Positions 49,100-64,000 of a DNA stretch of 64,000 bases are shown here, piece after piece. The notes beneath the pieces are model-generated. The model had not been told where the DNA came from. It was given only the letters and a program-made list of their open reading frames with translations, and did no database searches. Position 1 is the first letter of the stretch. Every line of letters starts with the position of its first letter. The stretch comes from an uncultured Rhodospirillales bacterium (GTDB lineage Bacteria > Pseudomonadota > Alphaproteobacteria > ATCC43930 > CGMCC-115725), in the NCBI GenBank assembly GCA_903828515.1, contig CAIKMD010000007.1:806001-870000 (forward strand). Direction: 5' to 3'. The position numbers and the translations under genes are program-made.

Positions 49100-50326
49100 T
49101 CAGGCGCCGGCTTCGTCGCCCGCGGTGACGGCGAAGAGCGAGGCGATGAGCCATAGGGTCGAGAGCCACCAGGCCTGCCAGATGCCGAAACTCAACAGGC
49201 CGACGACCAGGGCACCCGATACGAAAGCCAACGCCCCGGCGCGGTGATCCCGCGATAGGGTCGTTTTCCAGCCAAGACGCGCGACGATCCAGGTTAAAAT
49301 CGCCAATCCCAGGGCGAGGCCGGGCAGCCCGAGTTCGAGTTGCCACTGCAAGGCCGCGTCATGGGGATGGAGCGGCAGTGATTCGGCGCCACCCGGATAG
49401 GTGAGTGTCGGCAAGAGGTCGTTGAAATCGGTTTTGCCGCCGGGGATCGCGCGCGACGCATCCATGCCCCAGCCGAGCAGCGGATGTTCCGCGATCCGGT
49501 CGTCGCTGAAGCGCCAGATCAGGAGGCGGTGGATGCCCGACCATTTGATCCACGGCGCACTCTGGTGCAGCGTGAGGATATTGTCGTAGCTCGGTATCAA
49601 AACGGGAACGGCGACGCCGAAGGCAAGAATCCCCGCGATCATGACGCCGGCAACGCCTCGCGAGGTGAACCGCGCAACGGCCAAGACAACAAGACCCAGG
49701 AAAACCGACAGCACCGCGGCCGCGCTTTCCATCAGCAACGCCATGACCGGCACGGCGATGAGAAGCAAGCCGCGCAGCCATCGCGGCGCGACGGCGAAGA
49801 GCGCCGGCCACAGTGCCAGAACCATCACCGTGATGCCGCGGTCATAGCGTTGAAAGGGTAGAAGTTGATCGAAGGGAATCCCGAGCCAGTGGCGCACGAT
49901 CGGCGCATTGCCGAAGCGTTCGATCGCCAGGAGCAACAGGGCCACGACGATGCCGGCCACCATGGCTTTGCCGATCCGGCTTCGCTCGGACGGTGTTACC
50001 GATCGGGCCGCCCCCAAGATCATGAGTCCCCCCGCGCTGAGGGCGAGGAAACGAAGTCCTTCAAGAAAACTGTGCTCTGGCAAAATCGACCAGAGCGACG
50101 ACACCATTCCCCACAGCCCTAACGTGGCGAGGAGGATCGCGAGGCTCTTGATCCCAGCAAGACCCGCCAAACAGCGCTGGCGGTCGAAGACCAGCAGGGC
50201 TGCCGCCGCAACCACCAATAGGGGAGCCGCGCCGAGAGGCGCGAAAACGGCGAGCGGCGGCAGGAGCACGGCGACGGCGGCAAGGGCGATACAAGCCGCG
50301 CCACGCGTCGAAGAGTTACTTTCCAT
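49100..50326 (-). CDS. O-antigen ligase family (WaaL/Wzy-like) membrane protein
   Basis: The 408-residue protein has about eleven hydrophobic segments and a large periplasmic loop (about 255-330) containing HPLLGWGMDASR and LPLHPHDAALQWQLELGLPG; the H-x-H-x3-LQ-x-x-E-x-G-x-x-G arrangement is the Wzy_C signature. Family members ligate undecaprenyl-linked glycan to lipid A-core or polymerise repeats. With gmhA, hddA and many glycosyltransferase genes downstream, a role in the surface glycan of this locus is likely; ligase versus polymerase is not resolved. The gene is on the minus strand, with the WbpV-like gene upstream. Confidence 0.87.
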   Translation of the reverse strand: MESNSSTRGAACIALAAVAVLLPPLAVFAPLGAAPLLVVAAAALLVFDRQRCLAGLAGIKSLAILLATLGLWGMVSSLWSILPEHSFLEGLRFLALSAGGLMILGAARSVTPSERSRIGKAMVAGIVVALLLLAIERFGNAPIVRHWLGIPFDQLLPFQRYDRGITVMVLALWPALFAVAPRWLRGLLLIAVPVMALLMESAAAVLSVFLGLVVLAVARFTSRGVAGVMIAGILAFGVAVPVLIPSYDNILTLHQSAPWIKWSGIHRLLIWRFSDDRIAEHPLLGWGMDASRAIPGGKTDFNDLLPTLTYPGGAESLPLHPHDAALQWQLELGLPGLALGLAILTWIVARLGWKTTLSRDHRAGALAFVSGALVVGLLSFGIWQAWWLSTLWLIASLFAVTAGDEAGA

Positions 50327-51537: not shown

Positions 51538-52110
51538 ATGGACACCCTTGATGACTACCTAAAAGAATCGGCCGAAATCATAACGCAAACCCGTCGCGCC
51601 CTCGATCCGGCGAAAGTGGAGCGCGCGGTGCAGGTGTCGTTGACCGCGTTGGAGGCCGACAAGCCTTTGCTCATTTGCGGCAATGGCGGCTCGGCATCGG
51701 ATGCGATGCATATCGCCGGCGAATTGGTCGGGCGATTTTTGAAAGAACGCCGGGCCCTTAAGGCGATCGCCTTGTCGGCCGATTCGGCGATCATTACGGC
51801 TTGGGGTAATGACTACAGCTACGACGAGGTCTTTGCGCGCCAAGTTGACGCTTATGGCGAACCCGGCGGCGTTCTGCTGGCGATCAGCACCAGCGGCGGG
51901 TCGAAAAACGTCGTCGCGGCTGTAAAGGCAGCGAAGGCGAAAGGCATGACGTCGATCGCGTTGACCGGTAAGGGCGGCGGGATGCTCGGCTCCCTCGTGG
52001 ATATCCTGATCGATGTGCCGTCGACGTCGACGCCGCTCATTCAACAGACCCATATTTGCCTTTACCATTATTTGTGCGCCGAGATCGAAGCGCGTCTCGC
52101 GAAAAGCTGA
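51538..52110 (+). CDS. gmhA: GmhA, sedoheptulose 7-phosphate isomerase
   Basis: The 190-residue SIS-domain protein has LLICGNGGSASDAMHIAGELVGRF, with the glycine-rich phosphate loop and catalytic His, and LLAISTSGGSKNVVAAVKAAKAKGM (second phosphate loop). GmhA converts sedoheptulose 7-phosphate to D-glycero-D-manno-heptose 7-phosphate, the first step of ADP- or GDP-heptose synthesis. hddA follows after 9 bp. No gmhB or nucleotidyltransferase gene is in the window. The ATG at 51538 lacks a Shine-Dalgarno. Confidence 0.93.
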   Translation: MDTLDDYLKESAEIITQTRRALDPAKVERAVQVSLTALEADKPLLICGNGGSASDAMHIAGELVGRFLKERRALKAIALSADSAIITAWGNDYSYDEVFARQVDAYGEPGGVLLAISTSGGSKNVVAAVKAAKAKGMTSIALTGKGGGMLGSLVDILIDVPSTSTPLIQQTHICLYHYLCAEIEARLAKS

Positions 52111-52119
52111 GATCGATTC

Positions 52120-53148
52120 ATGATCATCACGTCGACCCCGTTTCGAATCTCGTTTTTCGGCGGCGGTACCGATTATCCCGTATGGTTTCGTGAACATGGC
52201 GGCGCCGTTTTGGCGGCGTCGATCAATCGCTATTGCTATCTGAGCTGCCGGTTTTATCCGCCGTTCTTCGAATTCAAGCACCGCGTCGTGTGGTCGCGTA
52301 TCGAGTTGGTCAACGACGTGGGTGAAATTCAGCATCCGGCGGTGCGCGAAGCCATTCGTTTCATGAAGATTACAGAGGGGCTCGAGATTCATCACGACGG
52401 CGATCTGCCGGCGCGGTCGGGTCTGGGTTCGAGCTCGGCGTTCGCTGTCGGGATGCTGCATGCGCTCTACGCGTTGCGGGGCGCGATGGTCTCGAAGCAT
52501 CGCCTGGCGGAAGAAGCGATCCACCTCGAGCGAGACTTGCTGAAGGAAGACGTCGGTATTCAGGATCAGATCACCACCGCCTATGGCGGCCTCAATCTGA
52601 TCACGATCGATGCGAGCGGCGCCTTCAACGTCCGTCCCGTGCCGATCACGACAATGCGAAAAAAAGAGCTCGAAGACCATCTGCTGCTGGTTTATACGGG
52701 CGTCGCGCGCACGGCATCGGACATTGCGAAAAAGCAAATCGTGTCGATTCCGACGAAAACCGCCGTGCTGCTTCAGATGCAAAAGCTCGTTTATGAAGCT
52801 GCCGATATCCTCACCGGACAAGGCGACATCTGCGAGTTCGGGCGGTTGTTGCACGAAACCTGGGAACTGAAGAAAAAGATCGCGTCTGAAATAACGACAC
52901 CTCTTGTCGATGATCTCTATAAGGCGGCTCGTGATGCCGGGGCGTTGGGCGGGAAATTGCTCGGCGCCGGTGGGGGTGGGTTCGTTTTGTTGTTCGTACG
53001 ACCGCAGACGCGCCAGGCGGTTTTGGAGGCCCTTAAGAATTATCTGATGGTCCCATTTGAACTCGAATCGAACGGCACGCACGTCGTGCTTTACGAGCCC
53101 GAGCGCTATTCGCAATTCGCCCGTACGCACCGGCAGTTTGCCCGCTAG
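52120..53148 (+). CDS. hddA: HddA, D-glycero-alpha-D-manno-heptose 7-phosphate kinase
   Basis: The 342-residue GHMP kinase starts TPFRISFFGGGTDYPVWF, the hallmark of HddA-like sugar kinases. It has the ATP loop DLPARSGLGSSSAFAVGML (about 90-108) and motif 3 LGGKLLGAGGGGFVLLFV. HddA phosphorylates the alpha anomer at C1, which points to the GDP-D-alpha-D-heptose branch of heptose activation rather than the HldE branch. It is co-transcribed with gmhA. An SDR gene converges 3 bp beyond its stop. Confidence 0.92.
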   Translation: MIITSTPFRISFFGGGTDYPVWFREHGGAVLAASINRYCYLSCRFYPPFFEFKHRVVWSRIELVNDVGEIQHPAVREAIRFMKITEGLEIHHDGDLPARSGLGSSSAFAVGMLHALYALRGAMVSKHRLAEEAIHLERDLLKEDVGIQDQITTAYGGLNLITIDASGAFNVRPVPITTMRKKELEDHLLLVYTGVARTASDIAKKQIVSIPTKTAVLLQMQKLVYEAADILTGQGDICEFGRLLHETWELKKKIASEITTPLVDDLYKAARDAGALGGKLLGAGGGGFVLLFVRPQTRQAVLEALKNYLMVPFELESNGTHVVLYEPERYSQFARTHRQFAR

Positions 53149-55055: not shown

Positions 55056-56030
55056 ATGAACGAAATATCGGAGAACGGCAAAGATCTTGACGTCAGCGAT
55101 CGCGCCAGACGGTTGGCGCGCGTGGTTGCGCGTGCGGATATTGCCGCTGACTATCCGCTGCTCAAGATCGTACGAATCGCGGACCCGGCGTTTGCGCGCC
55201 TGGAAGCCGCAGTCATGGTCTATGTCTGGCATACCCTGTCGCGCGCCTATCCCGATCGCGTTTTCACGCCTGGTCGAGACATGCTGGGGACTTGCGCACG
55301 CGAGATCATGTCGTTGCCCAATCGCACGCCGAACGGATTGTTGTTGCCGCGGCGGGATACGTTTCAATCATTCAACATGATCCATCAGGCATTGGTGGGT
55401 GCGGTCGATGCAGCCGATCTGCTCTCCTGCTTCTCGTTTTTGCAGATTCCGTGCAATGTCCGAATCGTCAGCGGCGCACCCGATCCCCAGGCCGACGCAC
55501 GCAGCTATTCCTCCGCCAAGATGCATACGGACGTCTGGAATGGCGAGCCCGTCAGCTCCATTCTTTTTAACATTCCGGTGCTGGGCGATCCAAAGGCCGT
55601 CGATCTGCGTTTCTACGAGCCGCGTGAGTTTCCCGAGGAACTACGCACCTTGCTCGGCGATTATTCGCTCGGCAAAGCGGTAACGGCGAGCGCGGTCGAA
55701 TATCCCGCGAAATTTGAAATGGGATACATGTACATCTCGGACTCGCTCTCACTACATCAGACCATGCGGGTGCAGCCGACGCTCCGCGTCTCGCTCGATT
55801 TTCGCACGATTGCACGCGAACTTTTGCCGGGCGAGTCCGCCGATTTTTCCGATTCCCGCGCGACGTATGTCGAACCGGATGCTTGGCGGGCTGTGGGTTT
55901 GACGACGATCCTGGCCAGTAGCGAGCCACTCGATGCCTTCCAGCGCCGACGCGCCGGCGAAGTCGTGGTGCACGAGCCCCTCTCAATCGTGAACGTCGAC
56001 GATTTCCCCAGCGAGAGACCGAACGTTTAG
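55056..56030 (+). CDS. Unrecognised protein with 2OG-Fe(II) oxygenase-like HxD...H...R pattern
   Basis: The 324-residue soluble protein matches no family I can name. In its second half it shows H157-T-D159 (AKMHTDVWNG), a distal His234 (SLSLHQTM) 75 residues on, and Arg244 (LRVSLDF) ten residues further. That is the iron- and 2OG-ligand spacing of PhyH/clavaminate-type double-stranded beta-helix oxygenases. ILFNIPVLGDP and YMYISDSL fit flanking strands. It starts at an ATG with weak Shine-Dalgarno, after the methyltransferase gene, and its 3' end overlaps the convergent GT2 gene by 4 bp. Hydroxylation of a glycan, lipid or small molecule is a hypothesis. Confidence 0.65.
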   Translation: MNEISENGKDLDVSDRARRLARVVARADIAADYPLLKIVRIADPAFARLEAAVMVYVWHTLSRAYPDRVFTPGRDMLGTCAREIMSLPNRTPNGLLLPRRDTFQSFNMIHQALVGAVDAADLLSCFSFLQIPCNVRIVSGAPDPQADARSYSSAKMHTDVWNGEPVSSILFNIPVLGDPKAVDLRFYEPREFPEELRTLLGDYSLGKAVTASAVEYPAKFEMGYMYISDSLSLHQTMRVQPTLRVSLDFRTIARELLPGESADFSDSRATYVEPDAWRAVGLTTILASSEPLDAFQRRRAGEVVVHEPLSIVNVDDFPSERPNV

Positions 56031-56929
56031 CCCGTTCTGCGCCGGCGTCGCCAAGCTGTGATGGTGGAGATGACCTGGAGGGGCCATGCGGGATTGCGAC
56101 CGATGGCACGCATGATCAAAACCATCGCCTCCGCCCGTCTTCCGCTTCGCCAGGTGAATACCGCCAGCCGGAGCGTTTCGCGCGCCTGCCATGACGTTAA
56201 TGCCGCCCGAGGCGACGCCATGCCGCCGGTGTGGCCGAGCCAATAATCGGCCATGCGGATGTGTTCTGCGATATAGGGCGGGATCGAATTCGCCTTGTGG
56301 TGAAGCGTGTGAGACCCCTCGTGAACGCGGAGCTCCGCGACAACCATGCCAAGATAGTCTTCCGAAATATTCGCGATCAGTGCGTGGAGCACGAACTCCC
56401 GGTCGGAACTTTCGGGAAACTCGGCATTGATGCCGCCGAGCTCAGCAATGACCGAGCGATGAAAGAAACGCGAATTGCAAAGCGGCAAATCGTCGAGGAC
56501 ATTGCCGAAATTCAATGCCGTCATCGCGCGGCCTGAAACGAGGCGGAGGGTCCTTTCCGTTCCGTCTGGTTCGCCTCGAAAGATCCGGAGTCCTCCTGTC
56601 CAGATACGAATATCGGGGGCTGCCCCGACATGGTCGACCAACCGCGCGATCGCACCTGGGAGAAGACGATCATCGCTGTTGAGTTCGATGACGAAATCCC
56701 CAGTCGCTGATGCGTATCCGAGCCGGATCGCCGGAGTCGGTCCCTTCCCGGGGCCTTGAATGATTTTGAGATGGGGATACCGGGCCAAGAGAGGAGCCAC
56801 GAACGCGGCACTACCGTCGTGAACGATGATGTGCTCGATATCGGCGCCTTCGTCGTGAGGAACGCTTGCGATCGCCTCATCGACGAAAATAGCGGCGTCG
56901 ATAGTCGGTGTGATGATCGAAACGCGCAC
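56027..56929 (-). CDS. GT2-family glycosyltransferase
   Basis: The 300-residue protein has the GT-A opening VSIITPTIDAAIFVDEAI, then IEHIIVHDGS and the D-x-D-like metal-binding segment ELNSDDRLLPGAI. The C-terminal region (about 215-300) is Arg-rich and helical, with TAWRRRRRTG as a basic tail, but no clear membrane helix. It probably transfers a nucleotide-activated sugar in surface-glycan assembly; sugar and acceptor unknown. It lies upstream of, and on the same strand as, the 2OG-like gene's convergent end, and downstream of the large GT2-GT41 gene on the same strand (111-bp gap). Confidence 0.88.
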   Translation of the reverse strand: MRVSIITPTIDAAIFVDEAIASVPHDEGADIEHIIVHDGSAAFVAPLLARYPHLKIIQGPGKGPTPAIRLGYASATGDFVIELNSDDRLLPGAIARLVDHVGAAPDIRIWTGGLRIFRGEPDGTERTLRLVSGRAMTALNFGNVLDDLPLCNSRFFHRSVIAELGGINAEFPESSDREFVLHALIANISEDYLGMVVAELRVHEGSHTLHHKANSIPPYIAEHIRMADYWLGHTGGMASPRAALTSWQARETLRLAVFTWRSGRRAEAMVLIMRAIGRNPAWPLQVISTITAWRRRRRTG

Positions 56930-57040: not shown

Positions 57041-59485
57041 TCAGTGCGTTGCGGGACCGGACAATTCGCCACGGATTTCGGGATTTGACGCGCGCCGCAG
57101 CATTATTTCGCAGGCGGCTTCGAGCTTACGTGCAAAGCCCTCGGAATCGTTGAAGCCGAACTGCCCGGCCATCTCACGGGAACGAAGACGATATGCGGCG
57201 AGCCTCGATCGATCTTGAGCGAGCGCGGCGGCGATCTCGACGTATTGTTCCTCCGATTCGGCAACCAGTTCGGGGCATCCATGCGCCCGAACGAGCGAGG
57301 CGCCATACCGCGCCGAAAAGCGGTCGCCGAGAAGGCTGATGACCGGCACGCCCTGCCAAAATGATTCGGCGATGGTATTGCCGCCGCCATAGGGCCACGT
57401 ATCGAGGGATATATCGACCTCTGCGTAATTTCGCAGGATGGTGTCGTTATCGGTGCCGCCTTTCAGGATCAGCCGGTCGGGTGTGATGCCGAAGCGCCCA
57501 AAGCGCTGTTCCATGAAGCGAAGATTGTCGATCGGCGTCAGATCGCGATTCCGCAGGAACAAACGTGAGTCTGGGACGCGCCGTAGAATGGCCGCCCAGA
57601 TCTCGATCAAGCGCAGATTGATTTTACCGCCTGTCCCAAAACAACCGAACGTCACATAGCCTTTCTCGATACTGGGCGGCTCGGCCTGGAAAGGAATTTT
57701 TTCGCCGCGCAGATCAAAGCAAAAGAAGCATCCGGGCAGCGCGTATATGTCTTCGGTGAAGAATTGCTTGTCCGGACCGTTCGCAACAACGTCGTCGCCC
57801 AGTACATAGTCGATGTTGTTCACCGCTGTTGTCGCGTGGTGATTGAGATACGAAATCTGAACAGGTGCACAGCGGTATGCCATCGCTCCATAGCGGTGGA
57901 AGGGCGAAAAGCCCGTCGTTTCAATGAATAGGTCGATCTTGTCCGACCTTACCAACTTGGCAAATTCTTCGTCCGTTTGCCGTCCGGTGACGCGCACGCC
58001 TTCGAAATGTCGAGCGATGTCCTGGGGAATGGAAATCGGCGAATAGCAGAACGGCCTGACCTTGCTGCGGTCGTGGTGCTGGATGAAATTGAGAATCTGG
58101 CGTCGCGCCGTCACTGAATCCCACCATGCGCAGTTGTAGCCGACGTTTATCGGCGCGGCGCCGGCGACAGTGGCTGGAACGATCGGAAGCTGCATCGAAG
58201 GGTGATCGGCATGCCGTTGAGCCCACCAAGCCTGCAGTTTGAGAATGTCGGCTGCATCGAGCGAAGGAGCCTTTTGAGCGACCTGGCAGACAAAAGAATC
58301 GATTTCGCTGTCCTTCAGCGCTTCGGTTTGCCGCCACAAGGCGAGTGCTTCCTCGATCTGGCCGCGTGCGTTGAATATCATCGCCGTATCGTTGCGCATC
58401 ATCATCTGCGCGCGTTCTTCCGTCGTATTGTCGTCGCTGCCGCTTGATGAGGCGCTAGTCCGGCCGATGATCCGGCCGATGATGCGGAGAACCAGGGGGC
58501 TGATATAAAGATGCAATCCACGGTCGAGGATCCAGCGTTTTAGCCCGGCGGGAACGAGACTGCCGAAGCGCAACCAAAGACGCCGCGCATTCTGTTTGGT
58601 CAGCCAGTCCTTGGCGGCATGAGATTCGTCGCCACCAGGCGACAACGCCAAAATCTCGCGCTGAAGGTCGGTTATGATCGGTTCGAGATTGAACGTTGTC
58701 GCGTGCGCATAGAACATCCGGTATTGGGCGAGCAGGCAATAGTCGCGCAGTCCGGGGTTGTCGCCGAAGAATCCATGGTCTGAAAACAGCTTGTGGATGG
58801 CAGCCACGCGCGCGCGAATGTGGGCGGTTATCGCTCGGGGCGTATTGCTGAGCTGATCTTTCTGGATTGCGTATTTCGCGACTTGTTGGGGCAGGTAGCC
58901 GGCGCGGTGCCGCGTCCCCAAGCGAGTCCACAACTCGAATTCAAAACACTCATAGTCGATGTCATCGGTGAAATAGCCGATGGCGTGAAGTGCGTTCCTG
59001 GAAAAGAAGCTTGAACAGAAATAGGGTGTGTACCGTCCAAACAGATAGTCCAGGAGATCGAATTCACGCCCGCTGATTTCGCCTGTTATCTTGCCGTCAT
59101 CGTCCGTGAGAATCGAATCGCCGGTGACCGCACCGATATCGGGATGCTCGCGAAGATACTGCACGGCTTGGGCGATGGCGTCGGGGAGAAGTTCCTCGTC
59201 GGCGAGACAACAGCCGATGATGTCGCCCGTGCAGCGCGGCAGCGCTTTCGAAAAAGCGTGCGACGAGCCGTTGTCGGGTTCCGAAACGAGTCGAATTCGA
59301 TCGCCATAACCCTCGAGAATTTCGACCGTGCCGTCGGTCGACCGTCCATCTTGGACAATCAGTTCGATGTTCTTGTAGGAACTTTGCAATACGCTTTCGA
59401 CCGCACGGGCAATCGTGTCCGCGCCGTTACGACAGAACATAATGATCGAAACAACGGGGGCCTCTGCGAGCATGACGCTATTCAT
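57041..59485 (-). CDS. GT2-GT41 fusion glycosyltransferase (O-GlcNAc-transferase-like C-terminus)
   Basis: The 814-residue protein has an N-terminal GT2 domain (about 8-235; VSIIMFCRNGADTIARAVES, IVQDGRSTDGT) whose usual NSDD metal motif reads LADEELLPD. A helical linker with a degenerate TPR-like segment (MMMRNDTAMIFNARGQIEEAL, about 360-400) leads to a GT41 domain (about 460-800) with INVGYNCAWWDSV, YVTFGCFGTGGKINLRLIEIW, LFLRNRDLTP and LDTWPYGGGNTIAESFWQGVPVI, the nucleotide-sugar region shared with OGT/SPINDLY. GT41 enzymes glycosylate proteins on Ser/Thr, though bacterial members may have other acceptors. A related C-terminal domain is encoded at the right end of the window. Confidence 0.88.
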   Translation of the reverse strand: MNSVMLAEAPVVSIIMFCRNGADTIARAVESVLQSSYKNIELIVQDGRSTDGTVEILEGYGDRIRLVSEPDNGSSHAFSKALPRCTGDIIGCCLADEELLPDAIAQAVQYLREHPDIGAVTGDSILTDDDGKITGEISGREFDLLDYLFGRYTPYFCSSFFSRNALHAIGYFTDDIDYECFEFELWTRLGTRHRAGYLPQQVAKYAIQKDQLSNTPRAITAHIRARVAAIHKLFSDHGFFGDNPGLRDYCLLAQYRMFYAHATTFNLEPIITDLQREILALSPGGDESHAAKDWLTKQNARRLWLRFGSLVPAGLKRWILDRGLHLYISPLVLRIIGRIIGRTSASSSGSDDNTTEERAQMMMRNDTAMIFNARGQIEEALALWRQTEALKDSEIDSFVCQVAQKAPSLDAADILKLQAWWAQRHADHPSMQLPIVPATVAGAAPINVGYNCAWWDSVTARRQILNFIQHHDRSKVRPFCYSPISIPQDIARHFEGVRVTGRQTDEEFAKLVRSDKIDLFIETTGFSPFHRYGAMAYRCAPVQISYLNHHATTAVNNIDYVLGDDVVANGPDKQFFTEDIYALPGCFFCFDLRGEKIPFQAEPPSIEKGYVTFGCFGTGGKINLRLIEIWAAILRRVPDSRLFLRNRDLTPIDNLRFMEQRFGRFGITPDRLILKGGTDNDTILRNYAEVDISLDTWPYGGGNTIAESFWQGVPVISLLGDRFSARYGASLVRAHGCPELVAESEEQYVEIAAALAQDRSRLAAYRLRSREMAGQFGFNDSEGFARKLEAACEIMLRRASNPEIRGELSGPATH

Positions 59486-59738: not shown

Positions 59739-60986
59739 TTACGGAAGATCACTGAATAATAGCCGAATTCGGCGAAGCGCCCGTTTCGGATCCGCCAAGC
59801 CCTTCAGGATCAGGCTTGGACGATAAATACGCCAACTGACGATTTTGGCGACCGGTTGCCTGAGTGGCCCCAGCCTCGACGCCGCAACGCTGCGTAATTT
59901 CCGATAGGACCTGCGAAGGTAATCAAGCTTTCCATGACGCAAACAAAGATATTCAATAAAGTTATAGAGACGCCGATCTCGGAAGGTGTCACCGGCGCCG
60001 CCGTAGTAGCCATAGTTGAGTTTACGAAAGGCGTTGGTCAATGTGATGCGAAGCCAGCTTAACCGGTAGGAGTGGCTATCCACGGTGTAGGTCGATAACA
60101 GGTCGACCACTTCGATGCGATGCCGCCGACGGTTGTCGCGTACTTCGAACTGTTCGAGTGTGGGGTGGGCTTCTGCCCAGATGTGGGCATGGAGTATTTG
60201 CGCGCGCCGTGCCGCCTCCTGCTGCATCCGGTGCGACATCAGAATGAACCAGGGCTTCAATGCACCGCGCATGCGTTGCCGAAGCGCCTGGCCGCTGAGC
60301 CCGATGCTGTCGCCGGCGCCGCCAAACGAGATATCGTAGATCGGCTGTTCGCGATACGGCCTGGCGACGTCGAACCGCCGTAACCAGCCGAAATAATACG
60401 CAACGCATTGCTGGAAGGAGTCCGGGCCGTTGCAGGGACACCATCCCCCGCCGAGTTCGATCCAACGTCTGGTCACGAACGAAGAGGTGTCGTTCGACCA
60501 GCCAGGTTCCCAAAAATCGTAATACGTTCTCAATCGATGATGCGACGTTCGCAGCCGAAAGATGTGATCGGGATGCAGCCCGACATATTTGCGTAACGTC
60601 GTGTCCCAGCCTTTATTCGCGAAATGCATTTCGTCGTTGAGCGGGAGAAGAAAATAGGCGTTCGGATCGCACGCTTTGAAAAGATCGTCATAGCAACTCC
60701 AAAGACCGTAAAATCCTCCCGACAAAGGAGTCGAAATATATGTAATCCGAAAGAGCCGACGCGCGGCCTCCTGCTGTAGGACCCGGTTCATATCGAGATC
60801 GTTATCGTCGATCTTGACGACAACCTCGACGGAAGAAAGGTCGTCGGTTGCCGCCTCGAGACGATCGAGGAACCGGGTAAAATTGTCCGGACGATTGGAG
60901 GTAAAGTGTATCGACAAAAGCACGCCCGTTTTTGGCGGGTTATCTATTTCGGCACGCTTTTGGGCCGCTACTGGTGCTTCCGACAT
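59739..60986 (-). CDS. Putative glycosyltransferase, GT-A like, family not recognised
   Basis: The 415-residue protein starts at the ATG ending at 60986, 11 bp after GGAGG; another ATG ends at 61004. VLLSIHFTSNRPDNFTRFLDRLEA and VEVVVKIDDNDLDMNRVL resemble the first strands of GT-A enzymes, with a D-D-N-D acidic cluster as possible metal site; NAYFLLPLNDEMHF follows. The C-terminal half is Arg/Tyr-rich and includes DRRLYNFIEYL. No membrane helices are obvious. It lies 253 bp upstream of the GT2-GT41 gene on the same strand. Annotation as a glycosyltransferase rests on the fold-like pattern and neighbours. Confidence 0.65.
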   Translation of the reverse strand: MSEAPVAAQKRAEIDNPPKTGVLLSIHFTSNRPDNFTRFLDRLEAATDDLSSVEVVVKIDDNDLDMNRVLQQEAARRLFRITYISTPLSGGFYGLWSCYDDLFKACDPNAYFLLPLNDEMHFANKGWDTTLRKYVGLHPDHIFRLRTSHHRLRTYYDFWEPGWSNDTSSFVTRRWIELGGGWCPCNGPDSFQQCVAYYFGWLRRFDVARPYREQPIYDISFGGAGDSIGLSGQALRQRMRGALKPWFILMSHRMQQEAARRAQILHAHIWAEAHPTLEQFEVRDNRRRHRIEVVDLLSTYTVDSHSYRLSWLRITLTNAFRKLNYGYYGGAGDTFRDRRLYNFIEYLCLRHGKLDYLRRSYRKLRSVAASRLGPLRQPVAKIVSWRIYRPSLILKGLADPKRALRRIRLLFSDLP

Positions 60987-61217
60987 TCGCGGCCGATCCT
61001 CCATTTGTGCCCCGCCTGAGGCGTCTTCACCCTGCGAATTCTCGCTTCATAGCCCGTATGGCCGGGCCCGCTCCGACTTTGGGCGGATTCTAGCGACCCT
61101 CCGTTGTGGCGTCGAGTGCTGAACCTCGACCAGACAATAGATAATAGTAAACAGGAAATGGCACGCGCGAAGTATGACGACGGCACGTGTGCGGGAATGT
61201 AATTTTGAGAGACGAGC

Positions 61218-62681
61218 ATGCATCGATCTTTTGCGCTATGCTCAGTGAACTATCTGGAATGCGTGGCTAAGGGAGTTCGAGTCTTGTTTGGTTATCTGGC
61301 TCGCGTTTTCTCGTACGTCGCGAGACGCGCTGCATTCTTAAATCAGAGCCATCAAACGGTGAAATGGACTGCGCCGGCAGATCCAGACAATATCGTTGCG
61401 GGGGACTCACTTTATTCCCGGGGCGTTCAATGTTTTGGCGAAGGCAAACTGGAAGAGAGCAAACGGCTTTTTGAGAGCTATTTGGATGCGATCGGTCGGT
61501 CGGATTTATTAAAGGACCACGTCACCGACGATTGTCCCAACGAAGAAGATTACGCGACTTTCGAGCCGCTGTTCCGCGATTTTCTGACCCGAAAACGGCT
61601 AAGCTGGGAAACCGGAAACAGTCCGTTGCCGCCATTCGTTCGCGACTCTGCCGCTTCGATGGCTGACCGCACCGATCCTTCGGCGACGAAGGTATTCTTT
61701 ATTTTCCCCCAATATATCTACAACAACGATCGGCACATCGAATGCGACATCAACGATCATCTTTACGAGTCTGCGGTTAACGCCGGCATACGGGCCGAAT
61801 ATTTTTTCGGCGATCGTATCTTGTATCCGCACCTGGGGCTCGACCCGGCTCATCCGAAAGAAGACCTTGCGAAATTGCGCGAACGAATTCGCGAGATGCG
61901 CCCCGATGTCATCGTGTTCGATGCCAATTTCGTCGGAGACGACATTGGGCTTAACGCTGCTTTTCTGCGCATGCTGAAAAAGGAATTTGGACCAAAGCTC
62001 ATTGGCTTCATGGGGGACGTCTGGGCTAGGCATTGGATCAAAATCGCGAATTATTGGAACTCGGTCGCCGACATGATCGTGTATATCGTGCCGGAAGGCC
62101 CTTTTCTGAAAGCGAGCACGTCCAGTGACAAGATGCTCTCAACGCCGTATCCGGTGAACAGCCGGAATTTCTTTCCCGATCCAGTAAAGAATCTTGATCT
62201 GTCTTTCTTTGGAAGTTACGCCTATTTGCGTCCCTTTTGGCTGACGCATGCTTTGCGCGCCGCGGCGCGGCTTGGTCTTAAAACCAATATTCGGGAACAT
62301 GAGCGGACGAGCGATTGTCCGACCGTCGCTGAGTATGCCGAAATTCTTCGGCGTTCTCGAATGGTCATGAATTTTTCTTCCCGTAGCGCTCAAGCAAAGA
62401 TCATTACCGGTCGGGTTTGGCAGGCACTCAATTCGGGGGCACTGCTGCTCGAAGAAGAAAATGAACAGACACGCTATTTCTTTGTTCCCTTCGTCCACTA
62501 TGCCCCCTTCGGGAACGCGCGCCAACTCGGACATTTTATTGAATTCTTCCACAAGAACCCGGATCAGGCCGATCTGATGGGGCGGAGCGCGCTTGTGTTC
62601 TGCCAGGAACATTATGGTGCGGCGGCGATCTGGAAAAGAATTCTTGGCGCGCCTCAGATGCAGGCGTCTGTCGGCAGTTAA
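61218..62681 (+). CDS. GT-B (CgeB-like) glycosyltransferase
   Basis: The 487-residue protein has an N-terminal helical/TPR-like region (GDSLYSRGVQCFGEGKLEESKRLFESYLDAI, about 60-92). A GT-B pair follows: TKVFFIFPQYIYNNDRHIEC, MRPDVIVFDANFVGDDIG, LIGFMGDVWARHW, then DLSFFGSYAYLRPFWLTHALRAAARLG and the C-terminal nucleotide-sugar half with GRVWQALNSGALLLEEENEQTRYFF, as in CgeB/Glyco_trans_1_2 proteins. Donor and acceptor are unknown. The first 45 residues are hydrophobic and basic (GVRVLFGYLARVFSYVARRA), perhaps membrane-associated. GAGAGACGAGC precedes the ATG. It is divergent from the GT-A-like gene. Confidence 0.8.
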   Translation: MHRSFALCSVNYLECVAKGVRVLFGYLARVFSYVARRAAFLNQSHQTVKWTAPADPDNIVAGDSLYSRGVQCFGEGKLEESKRLFESYLDAIGRSDLLKDHVTDDCPNEEDYATFEPLFRDFLTRKRLSWETGNSPLPPFVRDSAASMADRTDPSATKVFFIFPQYIYNNDRHIECDINDHLYESAVNAGIRAEYFFGDRILYPHLGLDPAHPKEDLAKLRERIREMRPDVIVFDANFVGDDIGLNAAFLRMLKKEFGPKLIGFMGDVWARHWIKIANYWNSVADMIVYIVPEGPFLKASTSSDKMLSTPYPVNSRNFFPDPVKNLDLSFFGSYAYLRPFWLTHALRAAARLGLKTNIREHERTSDCPTVAEYAEILRRSRMVMNFSSRSAQAKIITGRVWQALNSGALLLEEENEQTRYFFVPFVHYAPFGNARQLGHFIEFFHKNPDQADLMGRSALVFCQEHYGAAAIWKRILGAPQMQASVGS

Positions 62682-62743: not shown

Positions 62744-64000
62744 TTACGCCTTTTGTCGAAGCATATCGACATAGGCGGCTTCGAGCGACCGGGCTAGGCC
62801 TTGAGGGTCACCCAGGCCATTTTCCCTGGCGAGACGCCGAAGGTTCTGGCGCAAAAACAAAAGCCGTTCCTTATCGTGGCCGAGTTGATCGGCCAAGCGG
62901 ACATAGGCGTCGAAATTATCGGCGACGAGATCGGCCAATCCGCATGCGTGGAAAAGCGACGCGCCATAGGCGGAGGAAAAGCGATCACCCTTGTAGGAGA
63001 CGACCGGCACACCTTGCCAAACCGATTCGGCGATCGTATTCCCGCCGCAGTAGGGAAAAGTATCGAGGCTGATGTCCACCATGGAATAGTTACGCAGGAT
63101 CGTGCTTCGATCGGCGCCTGGCAACAGCGTGATCCGCGACGTGTCGACGCCGAGCCATTGAAACTGCTTGCGGATGAATTCCTGGTTCGCGATCGACGAC
63201 ATTGACGGATTCTGAAGGATCAATCGCGATTTCTCGCTGTGTCGCAGCAGATCGGCCCAAACCTTGAGGATTTCCGAATTGAGCTTGTCGCCTCCGCCGA
63301 AACAGCCATACGTGACGTACCCATTGGCGATCATCGGCGGTGGCGCGACGGCCGGCAATTCGTCCTCGTTGTAAGAAAAGCTGAAAAAGCAGCGGGGCAG
63401 TCGATAGATCGTTTCCGAGTAATGTGGATCGCACACGACAGGCGTTGCAATCTCGTCGCCGATCACATAATCGATGTTTTCGATCCCAACCGTACCCGTG
63501 TGATTGAGATAGGTCGCTTGTACGGGCGCGCAACGCACGGCGGCGGCCGCGAGACGGTGAGGGAACGAGAGCCCCGTCATCTCGACGAAAACATCGACCT
63601 GATGGCTTCGGACGAGATCAACGAAGTCGCCGTTCGACAAATGTCCGGTCACGTGGAATTCGTCGAAATGACGTCGTACATCCTCAGCTTCTTCGCTGGG
63701 TGCGTATCCGATGATTTTGAAGTTTGAGCGGTCATGAGCGGCGATCAAAGGCAGCGCCTGAGATCTGCCGGTATTGACGTGCCAAAATCCGCAGTGATAG
63801 CCGATAACCGGTTTCTGGCCCGGTGCCTTTCGTTTGAATGTCGCGGGCGGCTTTCCGGGAAGCGGCGTTGCGAATTTCGCGGCCCATTCGTGTTGCAACT
63901 CGAGCAATTGGGCATCGGTCGATTCTGGCGACTTTATTTTCGCCTGAAGCGCCATTGAATCGATGTAAATGTTATTGAGGGGCTGTGCGTGTTTCCACGC
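62744..64000 (-). CDS. GT41 (O-GlcNAc-transferase-like) protein, N-terminus beyond window edge
   Basis: The frame stays open through base 64000, so the N-terminus lies outside. The visible 418 residues are mostly the GT41 catalytic region: GYHCGFWHVNTGRS, VDVFVEMTGLSFPHRLAAAAVRCAPVQATYLNHTGT, NGYVTYGCFGGGDKLNSEILKVW and LDTFPYCGGNTIAESVWQGVPVV. It is clearly paralogous to the C-terminal half of the protein at 57-59.5 kb. The part at the edge (WKHAQPLNNIYIDSMALQ) suggests a preceding helical or TPR domain. It converges on the CgeB-like gene. Confidence 0.85.
   Translation of the reverse strand, partial: AWKHAQPLNNIYIDSMALQAKIKSPESTDAQLLELQHEWAAKFATPLPGKPPATFKRKAPGQKPVIGYHCGFWHVNTGRSQALPLIAAHDRSNFKIIGYAPSEEAEDVRRHFDEFHVTGHLSNGDFVDLVRSHQVDVFVEMTGLSFPHRLAAAAVRCAPVQATYLNHTGTVGIENIDYVIGDEIATPVVCDPHYSETIYRLPRCFFSFSYNEDELPAVAPPPMIANGYVTYGCFGGGDKLNSEILKVWADLLRHSEKSRLILQNPSMSSIANQEFIRKQFQWLGVDTSRITLLPGADRSTILRNYSMVDISLDTFPYCGGNTIAESVWQGVPVVSYKGDRFSSAYGASLFHACGLADLVADNFDAYVRLADQLGHDKERLLFLRQNLRRLARENGLGDPQGLARSLEAAYVDMLRQKA

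Follow-up and report, generated by a model that had tools for sequence, protein, structure and literature searches.

The window analysed here is a stretch of 64,000 nucleotides from contig CAIKMD010000007.1 of an uncultured Rhodospirillales bacterium (assembly GCA_903828515.1), whose minus strand encodes, at 57041–59485, an 814-residue protein (P0001) in which a family 2 glycosyltransferase (GT2) is joined through a helical linker to a glycosyltransferase of family GT41. The gene has an ATG start and is a single open frame, with no internal stop across its 814 codons; another ATG in the same frame follows four codons later, and inspection by eye revealed no clear ribosome-binding site. The GT2 domain, of the GT-A fold, spans residues ~10–215 (58841–59458, minus strand), with the Pfam model PF00535 matching residues 13–121 at E = 4.1e-23 (82.6 bits against a cut-off of 23.3). 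The GT41 domain, of the GT-B fold, spans residues ~445–800 (57086–58153, minus strand) and is matched by PF13844 at 6.9e-27 (94.3 bits against a cut-off of 25). The original prediction that one polypeptide carries both domains is thus borne out, since both profile matches are significant and both folds appear in the AlphaFold2 model, and the window gene is a real two-domain GT2-GT41 fusion. Modular glycosyltransferases are common, and GT2 and GT41 are both known families; the novelty lies in this combination, or variant, of them, for which we found no description among the open-access papers listed.

The AlphaFold2 model of the whole protein (built with 13 sequences; mean predicted local distance difference test score (pLDDT) 75.2, predicted template modelling score (pTM) 0.78) lays out a GT-A half, a series of helices and a GT-B half. 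In structural comparisons with VIA-align, its best fold match was the O-GlcNAc transferase (OGT) of Thermobaculum terrenum (5djs; residues 296–804, Z 41.7, root-mean-square deviation (rmsd) 3.3, 471 aligned), followed by the Arabidopsis O-fucosyltransferase SPINDLY (SPY; 8dtg; residues 290–801, Z 41.2, rmsd 3.0, 458 aligned), while the front of the protein matched the fucosyltransferase WrtF (9omh; residues 9–367, Z 23.6, rmsd 4.4, 240 aligned) and 6p61 (residues 8–208, Z 23.4, rmsd 2.5, 186 aligned). By sequence, the solved proteins nearest to the C-terminal half were SPINDLY (2.2e-47 over residues 445–801) and the Thermobaculum OGT; those nearest to the N-terminal half were WrtF, chondroitin synthase and 6p61. 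No paper on WrtF was found in the open-access literature.

In total, 22 fusion genes were identified in 15 genomes, of which 21 lie in 14 genomes and one on the closed plasmid p2 of Azospirillum sp. TSA2s. BLAST and profile searches of retrieved loci gave two fusions each in the window's genome, G423, G424 and G427, and one each in G038, G425, G426 and G428. Of these, G427 is the cultured strain Enhydrobacter aerosaccus ATCC 27094, G038 is a same-family relative of the window genome whose fusion gene ends at the contig end, and in the G428 fusion only the C-terminal part of the GT2 remains. Among 75 genomes of the Enhydrobacter family, 11 matched at E ≤ 1e-60, adding G458, G459 and G474 (two fusions each) and G465, G470 and G493 (one each). 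A tblastn search of the plasmid database PLSDB (E ≤ 1e-30) matched 38 records, a single one of them, the Azospirillum plasmid, with at least 80% coverage. Its fusion (WP_136701561.1, 1008 residues) is annotated just as 'glycosyltransferase' and has a PglD_N-like front; this extra N-terminal Rossmann-like region (L151:19191-22217, PglD_N 2.5e-05) is also seen, by eye, in G428 (L102:109-2820).

Wider sampling placed the fusion in 2 of 43 genomes of the order, and in 1 of 385 and 1 of 398 genomes of the class and phylum samples, in both cases the window's own genome, these last two counts being lower bounds because the two best candidates were scored per genome. At E ≤ 1e-50, matches came from 55 of the 385 class genomes, the best outside the own genome reaching 2.8e-69 compared with 3.1e-115 or below for the fusions found in one of the searches above, and within the phylum sample the own genome was the only one to match at E ≤ 1e-65 (1/398). 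The scan of genome contigs used two short GT2 patterns only, so that divergent members would be missed. A scan of viral contigs returned 47 pattern matches and no relatives, and a viral origin was rejected.

In a tree of 90 GT41 domains, all 21 sampled fusion domains formed one clade apart from the 69 other rows, with a support of 100 in the Shimodaira–Hasegawa-like approximate likelihood ratio test (SH-aLRT, quick method); the tree omits G038, whose GT41 lies beyond the contig end, and the locus-cut pieces of fusion genes L112 and L113. No clade member without GT2 sequence was found among the 21 sampled. Outside the clade, a GT2 was detected in none of 66 GT41 proteins by a profile that found 12 of 12 fusions (G428 partly) and was trained partly on the fusions themselves; ten of the 66 run beyond their locus, eight N-terminally and two C-terminally, and a GT2 could be missed there. 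Two short rows were excluded from this set by a size limit, and before the count seven pieces cut by their locus (two from fusion genes, two from genes already listed) had been dropped.

The linker (residues ~216–444; 58154–58840, minus strand) contains 11 helices within residues 216–426 in the AlphaFold2 model, residues 321–352 being partly of low confidence, and from residue ~296 on it aligns with the parts of the OGT and SPY chains that precede the catalytic domain. An N-terminal superhelix of tetratricopeptide repeats (TPRs), the hallmark of the OGT/SPY TPR-GT41 subgroup, is not present. What the fusions share is a single TPR-like hairpin (RGQIEEALALW..., residues 374–405; 58271–58366, minus strand), for which some relatives give TPR_14 matches, all sub-threshold. 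No Pfam TPR model was found at E ≤ 0.01 in the 12 fusions scanned, compared with TPRs at E ≤ 0.001 in 65 of 66 other GT41 proteins, and the proposal that a short TPR-like linker replaces the superhelix therefore holds in the form of one hairpin.

The GT2 half had also been credited with an altered metal motif on account of the string LADEELLPD. The string exists (residues 94–102), but an abnormal site is not supported. Residues L94-A95-D96-E97 (59195–59206, minus strand), which correspond to the xxDD/DxD metal motif, align with D-S-D-D of chondroitin synthase (2z87) and G-A-D-D of WrtF (9omj); relative to DxD, the first Asp is replaced by Leu, the second is kept as D96, which we predict to be part of the metal site, and the next Asp is replaced by Glu (E97). 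The form [AS]DE is found in 8/8 class A fusions (defined below, window protein included), in 10/10 stand-alone GT2 relatives and in the Azospirillum protein, i.e., in 19/19 sequences (9 class A, 10 stand-alone). The same sets conserve QD..STDGT (..STDST in Azospirillum) and E182 within E-F-E-[LI]-W, which aligns onto the Asp of an E-D pair of 6p61. The D96/E97 motif and E182 presumably have the metal-ligand and base roles familiar from GT2 enzymes. Decay of the metal site in the window protein is ruled out by the invariance of [AS]DE in class A and the stand-alone GT2s. A profile of 12 relatives matched chondroitin synthase best (2.7e-24) and WrtF at about 1e-15. In most of the ten stand-alone GT2 relatives (L043:10722-11984 and nine others) the C-terminus has a comparable TPR-like hairpin. 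Several finish with a VGY, IGY or GW stretch that resembles the opening strand of GT41, and so look like a fusion from which the GT41 half is missing.

The fusions fall into two classes, assigned from the score against the GT2 profile together with the motif, so that 'class A' means 'not B'. In the GT2 tree, which omits the partial G428, class B is one clade (100/100) on a long stem of 0.78 and class A is no clade (three changes). Among the 12 class B fusions D96 is kept in 2, E97 in none and E182 in 4. Pairwise identities point the same way, although the pairs are not independent: in class A (7 proteins) GT2 identity exceeds GT41 identity in 19 of 21 pairs (means 65% vs. 57%), and class B (12 proteins) has no such pair among 66 (means 42% vs. 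60%). Five genomes (G423, G424, G427, G458 and G474) hold one gene of each class. An AlphaFold2 model of a class B protein (mean pLDDT 76.2, pTM 0.77) again had SPY and OGT as best matches, with GT41 chains filling the 50 matches listed and no GT-A structure among them. By its residues, the window protein belongs to class A and has intact GT2 motifs. The suggestion that the GT2 half only recognises the acceptor is a better fit to class B than to this protein; in class B, the loss of the motifs and the retention of the domain suggest that holding the acceptor is the part that must be kept.

The GT41 half was compared, over 20 fusions and 68 other GT41 rows, with the residue roles described for SPINDLY in PMC10027727 and PMC9715652. 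K621, Y699 and E707 of the window protein correspond to SPY K665, Y744 and E752, which, with G570, are unchanged in 20/20 fusions; the Lys, Tyr and Glu recur in the Azospirillum protein, and the Lys in 68/68 other rows. Elsewhere in the site the fusions differ: S496 is replaced by Thr in 19/20, H495 by Asp in 17/20, T747 by Gly in 20/20, H728 by an aliphatic residue in 20/20 (I683 in the window protein) and K689 by Gln in 18/20 (R645 in the window protein), and T748 is replaced by Asn in 20/20 (N703), a residue seen at this position in 0/68 other rows. In SPY, K689 and H728 contact the guanine and T748 the ribose (PMC10027727, PMC9715652). As read from the alignment, the GT41 half thus keeps the SPINDLY Lys, Tyr and Glu and has a rewired nucleotide pocket, and by sequence both halves retain the residues that an active enzyme should have.

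The label 'OGT-like' is disfavoured by the same data, as the nearest solved proteins are SPINDLY and the Thermobaculum OGT and none of the OGT donor triad L866, R904 and C917 (PMC10027727) is kept, the window protein having R645, N686 (in place of the uracil-reading R904) and Y699. The SPINDLY triad K689, A731 and Y744 is not reproduced either, since the Tyr is kept, K689 is Arg and A731 is Asn; this is a mixed pattern, and an intermediate GT41 group with mixed donor residues, prokaryotic proteins included, is described in PMC10027727. The Tyr at SPY 744 sets the size of the pocket (PMC9715652), which speaks against a 2-N-acetyl donor. The GT41 donor is therefore probably not UDP-GlcNAc, and a GDP-sugar is not certain.

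Around the fusion lie genes for polysaccharide export and for a GDP-deoxyheptose. A further GT2, encoded by its own gene and carrying the usual NSDD motif, lies 111 bases downstream (56027–56929, minus strand; PF00535, 3.5e-13), and on the other side is a GT4-like glycosyltransferase of the Glyco_trans_1_2 type (61218–62681, plus strand; PF13524, 3.7e-12). An O-antigen ligase-like membrane protein (49100–50326, minus strand; PF04932 Wzy_C, 2.1e-13) is followed by a GmhA-like SIS-domain isomerase (51538–52110, plus strand, start set from the translation; PF13580, 5.4e-27) and an HddA-like D-glycero-D-manno-heptose kinase of the GHMP type (52120–53148, plus strand; best PDB match 3k85, 2.2e-39). 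Both fusions of the genome are surrounded by genes for a Wzm/Wzt-type ATP-binding cassette (ABC) transporter and by other glycosyltransferases. The heptose set includes a fused gene whose GmhB portion exceeds its subfamily cut-off and whose HddC-like portion falls short of the equivalog cut-off, together with a GDP-heptose 4,6-dehydratase (best PDB match 7us5, 4.5e-106) and a ColD-like 3-dehydratase dependent on pyridoxal phosphate (PLP; 6.3e-81). Beside these dehydratases are thiamine pyrophosphate (TPP) E1 alpha/beta-like genes (L011:12826-14833 and L011:14862-17206; below equivalog cut-offs). These could make a branched 3,6-dideoxyheptose, and homologues lie near fusions in several genomes. 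Two B12-binding radical S-adenosylmethionine (SAM) genes (L011:4747-6786 and L011:7837-9468) have relatives of 57–75% identity near fusions in G424, G425, G427, G428 and Azospirillum. Two proteins of the window gave no Pfam or NCBIfam match, one of 421 residues between the fusion and the GT4-like gene (59739–61004; GT-A-like by eye) and one of 324 residues (55056–56030).

The original prediction expected the fusion to recur with its neighbourhood; the fusion does recur, and parts of the neighbourhood, not the whole, recur with it. Homologues of many locus genes lie near the fusions of G423–G428, and the Azospirillum plasmid carries homologues of the dehydratase (70.6%), the kinase (49%) and a radical SAM protein (57%). 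A close homologue of the GDP-heptose 4,6-dehydratase is present in 15/15 fusion genomes compared with 12/384 other genomes of the class, where the five best candidates were scored per genome, and with 25/64 genomes of the Enhydrobacter family that have no fusion (Fisher 1.2e-4, the Fisher values overstating independence because the genomes are related). In 11 of 15 genomes dehydratase and fusion share a contig and lie within 30 kb of each other; in G425, G428, G493 and G038 the dehydratase is on another contig. No flagellin, S-layer protein or adhesin was matched among the locus genes given a family search, the other locus genes not having been searched. Five further GT41 genes elsewhere in the genome all have TPRs, and on contig C9 (L013) three TPR-bearing GT41 genes lie within 7 kb at a contig end.

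A second GT41 gene had been noted 3.3 kb away, and it is present; it is in fact an FkbM-GT2-GT41 fusion whose C-terminal part occupies 62744–64000 (minus strand) and which continues 2244 bases beyond the window end. The whole gene (L010:4744-8244) encodes 1166 residues with an FkbM methyltransferase (PF05050, 8e-14), a GT2 (PF00535, 4.5e-18) and a GT41 domain (PF13844, 1.3e-30), and is 43% identical to P0001 across the shared GT2-GT41 part. Separate FkbM homologues directly adjoin the fusion in G470 (L146:456-1448) and lie near fusions in G423 (54%) and G427 (55%), with a distant one in G425 (26%). The occurrence of FkbM homologues near fusions in three other genomes hints, by way of gene fusion, that the three activities are linked.

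Several known systems resemble parts of this arrangement. SPINDLY shares the GT-B domain end to end, with no large insertion, and has an 11-TPR superhelix where the fusion has a GT2 in front, the fusion differing further in the changed H495, T748, H728 and K689 equivalents and in its polysaccharide locus. The Thermobaculum OGT and XcOGT presumably also carry TPRs where the fusion has its GT2, and the Tyr at the SPY Y744 position is shared with them (PMC9715652). FlmG, an alphaproteobacterial TPR-glycosyltransferase of Caulobacter that glycosylates flagellin, likewise has an N-terminal domain that picks the acceptor and a C-terminal GT-B domain that transfers, its TPR domain and not its glycosyltransferase domain having bound the acceptor (PMC7591256); it differs in its N-terminal TPRs, its flagellin acceptor and its pseudaminic acid donor, and the likeness comes from the published description and not from sequence. 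HMW1C and other N-glucosyltransferases (NGT) share the GT41-like GT-B fold (Z about 30), at 13–15% identity and with another N-terminal domain, and use UDP-glucose and Asn (PMC9715652). On the GT2 side, WrtF and chondroitin synthase share the GT-A fold, with ADD/SDD aligned to ADE and hence an Asp where the fusion has its Glu, and the matched chains are no GT41 fusions. In the capsule pathway of Campylobacter jejuni, GDP-3,6-dideoxyheptoses arise through a 4,6-dehydratase and a PLP-dependent C3-dehydratase of the type seen here (PMC10440746); the fusion locus adds the TPP E1-like and B12 radical SAM genes.

The best-supported reading, to which we give about even chances, is that the fusion is a two-headed, glycan-building transferase for a surface polysaccharide and not a protein O-GlcNAc transferase. 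The linker and GT2 occupy the place of the polypeptide-holding TPRs of SPY and FlmG, and the acceptor is thus probably a glycan. In the mechanism that we propose, a cytoplasmic fusion protein would build part of a polysaccharide exported via the Wzm/Wzt-type ABC transporter: the GT2 head (QDG.STDGT, D96-E97, E182) would add one sugar, its product would pass across the helical linker, and the GT41 head would add the next by SPINDLY-like chemistry (K621, Y699, E707). At least one of the heads, most probably GT41, would draw on a GDP-(deoxy)heptose made by the GmhA-, HddA- and HddC-GmhB-like proteins, the 4,6-dehydratase and the ColD-like 3-dehydratase, and the neighbouring FkbM-GT2-GT41 protein may add a further step and a methylation. 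SPY (PMC10027727) and WrtF, among the nearest solved relatives by fold, use GDP-fucose.

Several points weigh against this reading. HMW1C-type GT41 enzymes are not known to have long TPRs and yet modify proteins. Donor, acceptor and activity of the fusion are what we infer, and the relative placing of the two domains is that of a predicted model. The profile of relatives lies closer to chondroitin synthase than to WrtF, which makes the hint of GDP from the GT2 half weak, and with the SPY guanine residues K689 and H728 and the ribose residue T748 replaced, the use of GDP is not proven by the GT41 half. The window protein has Val at the H495 position, where SPY mutants are dead (PMC9715652). Apart from the relatedness of the genomes compared, the 25 of 64 relatives that have the dehydratase without a fusion imply that this sugar does not depend on the fusion.

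Among the alternatives, we consider it unlikely that the fusion is a protein glycosyltransferase whose GT41 half attaches the initial sugar to Ser/Thr of a protein for the GT2 to extend, or the reverse. HMW1C/NGT enzymes, recognisable by fold, manage without long TPRs, and precedent exists in SPY, which acts on proteins (PMC10027727, PMC9715652), and in FlmG with its flagellin (PMC7591256); but the fusions lack the superhelix, no flagellin, S-layer protein or adhesin was matched among the locus genes given a family search, the locus carries polysaccharide export and deoxyheptose genes, and the five TPR-bearing GT41 proteins encoded elsewhere could serve proteins. For the same reason of gene context, the suggested building and extension of a glycan on a single protein acceptor is disfavoured. 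That the GT41 half alone is catalytic, with the GT2 as an acceptor-binding module, is unlikely for the window protein: this looks true of class B, in which the motifs are lost, the stem is long and the GT2 changes faster than the GT41, and it suits G428 with its GT2 remnant, whereas the window protein is of class A, with intact motifs that are common to 10/10 stand-alone GT2 relatives and, in class A pairs, a GT2 under stronger constraint than the GT41.

The converse, a catalytic GT2 with GT41 as a scaffold, is very improbable; the replaced SPY contacts (H495, T748, H728, K689) would suit it, but the K665, Y744 and E752 equivalents are invariant in 20/20 fusions, and the class B GT41 domains remain, despite a ruined GT2, on average 60% identical to one another and 47–52% to the window protein, which an inert GT41 would hardly explain. 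An assembly or frameshift artefact joining two genes has next to no probability, as nothing was found in its favour, the frame is open and the identical join recurs in other assemblies, in the cultured strain and on the complete plasmid; the hidden frameshift join considered earlier is thereby ruled out.

Returning to the two-headed polysaccharide transferase, its wider form is that of a new GT41 lineage that has taken up polysaccharide assembly, acting as a GDP-(3,6-dideoxy)heptosyltransferase, in which a GT2 replaced the TPR acceptor-holder and, in the sister branch, this GT2 decayed to a dead, acceptor-holding pseudo-glycosyltransferase beside an active GT41; we offer this only tentatively, at a little under even chances. 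The solved GT41 enzymes that served for comparison (OGT, SPINDLY and HMW1C/NGT) are known as protein glycosyltransferases, and if the reading is true the family would extend to polysaccharide assembly, with the choice of donor and acceptor re-engineered within one fold. The branches with intact and with decayed GT2 form a natural experiment in the conversion of an enzyme domain to a binding role.

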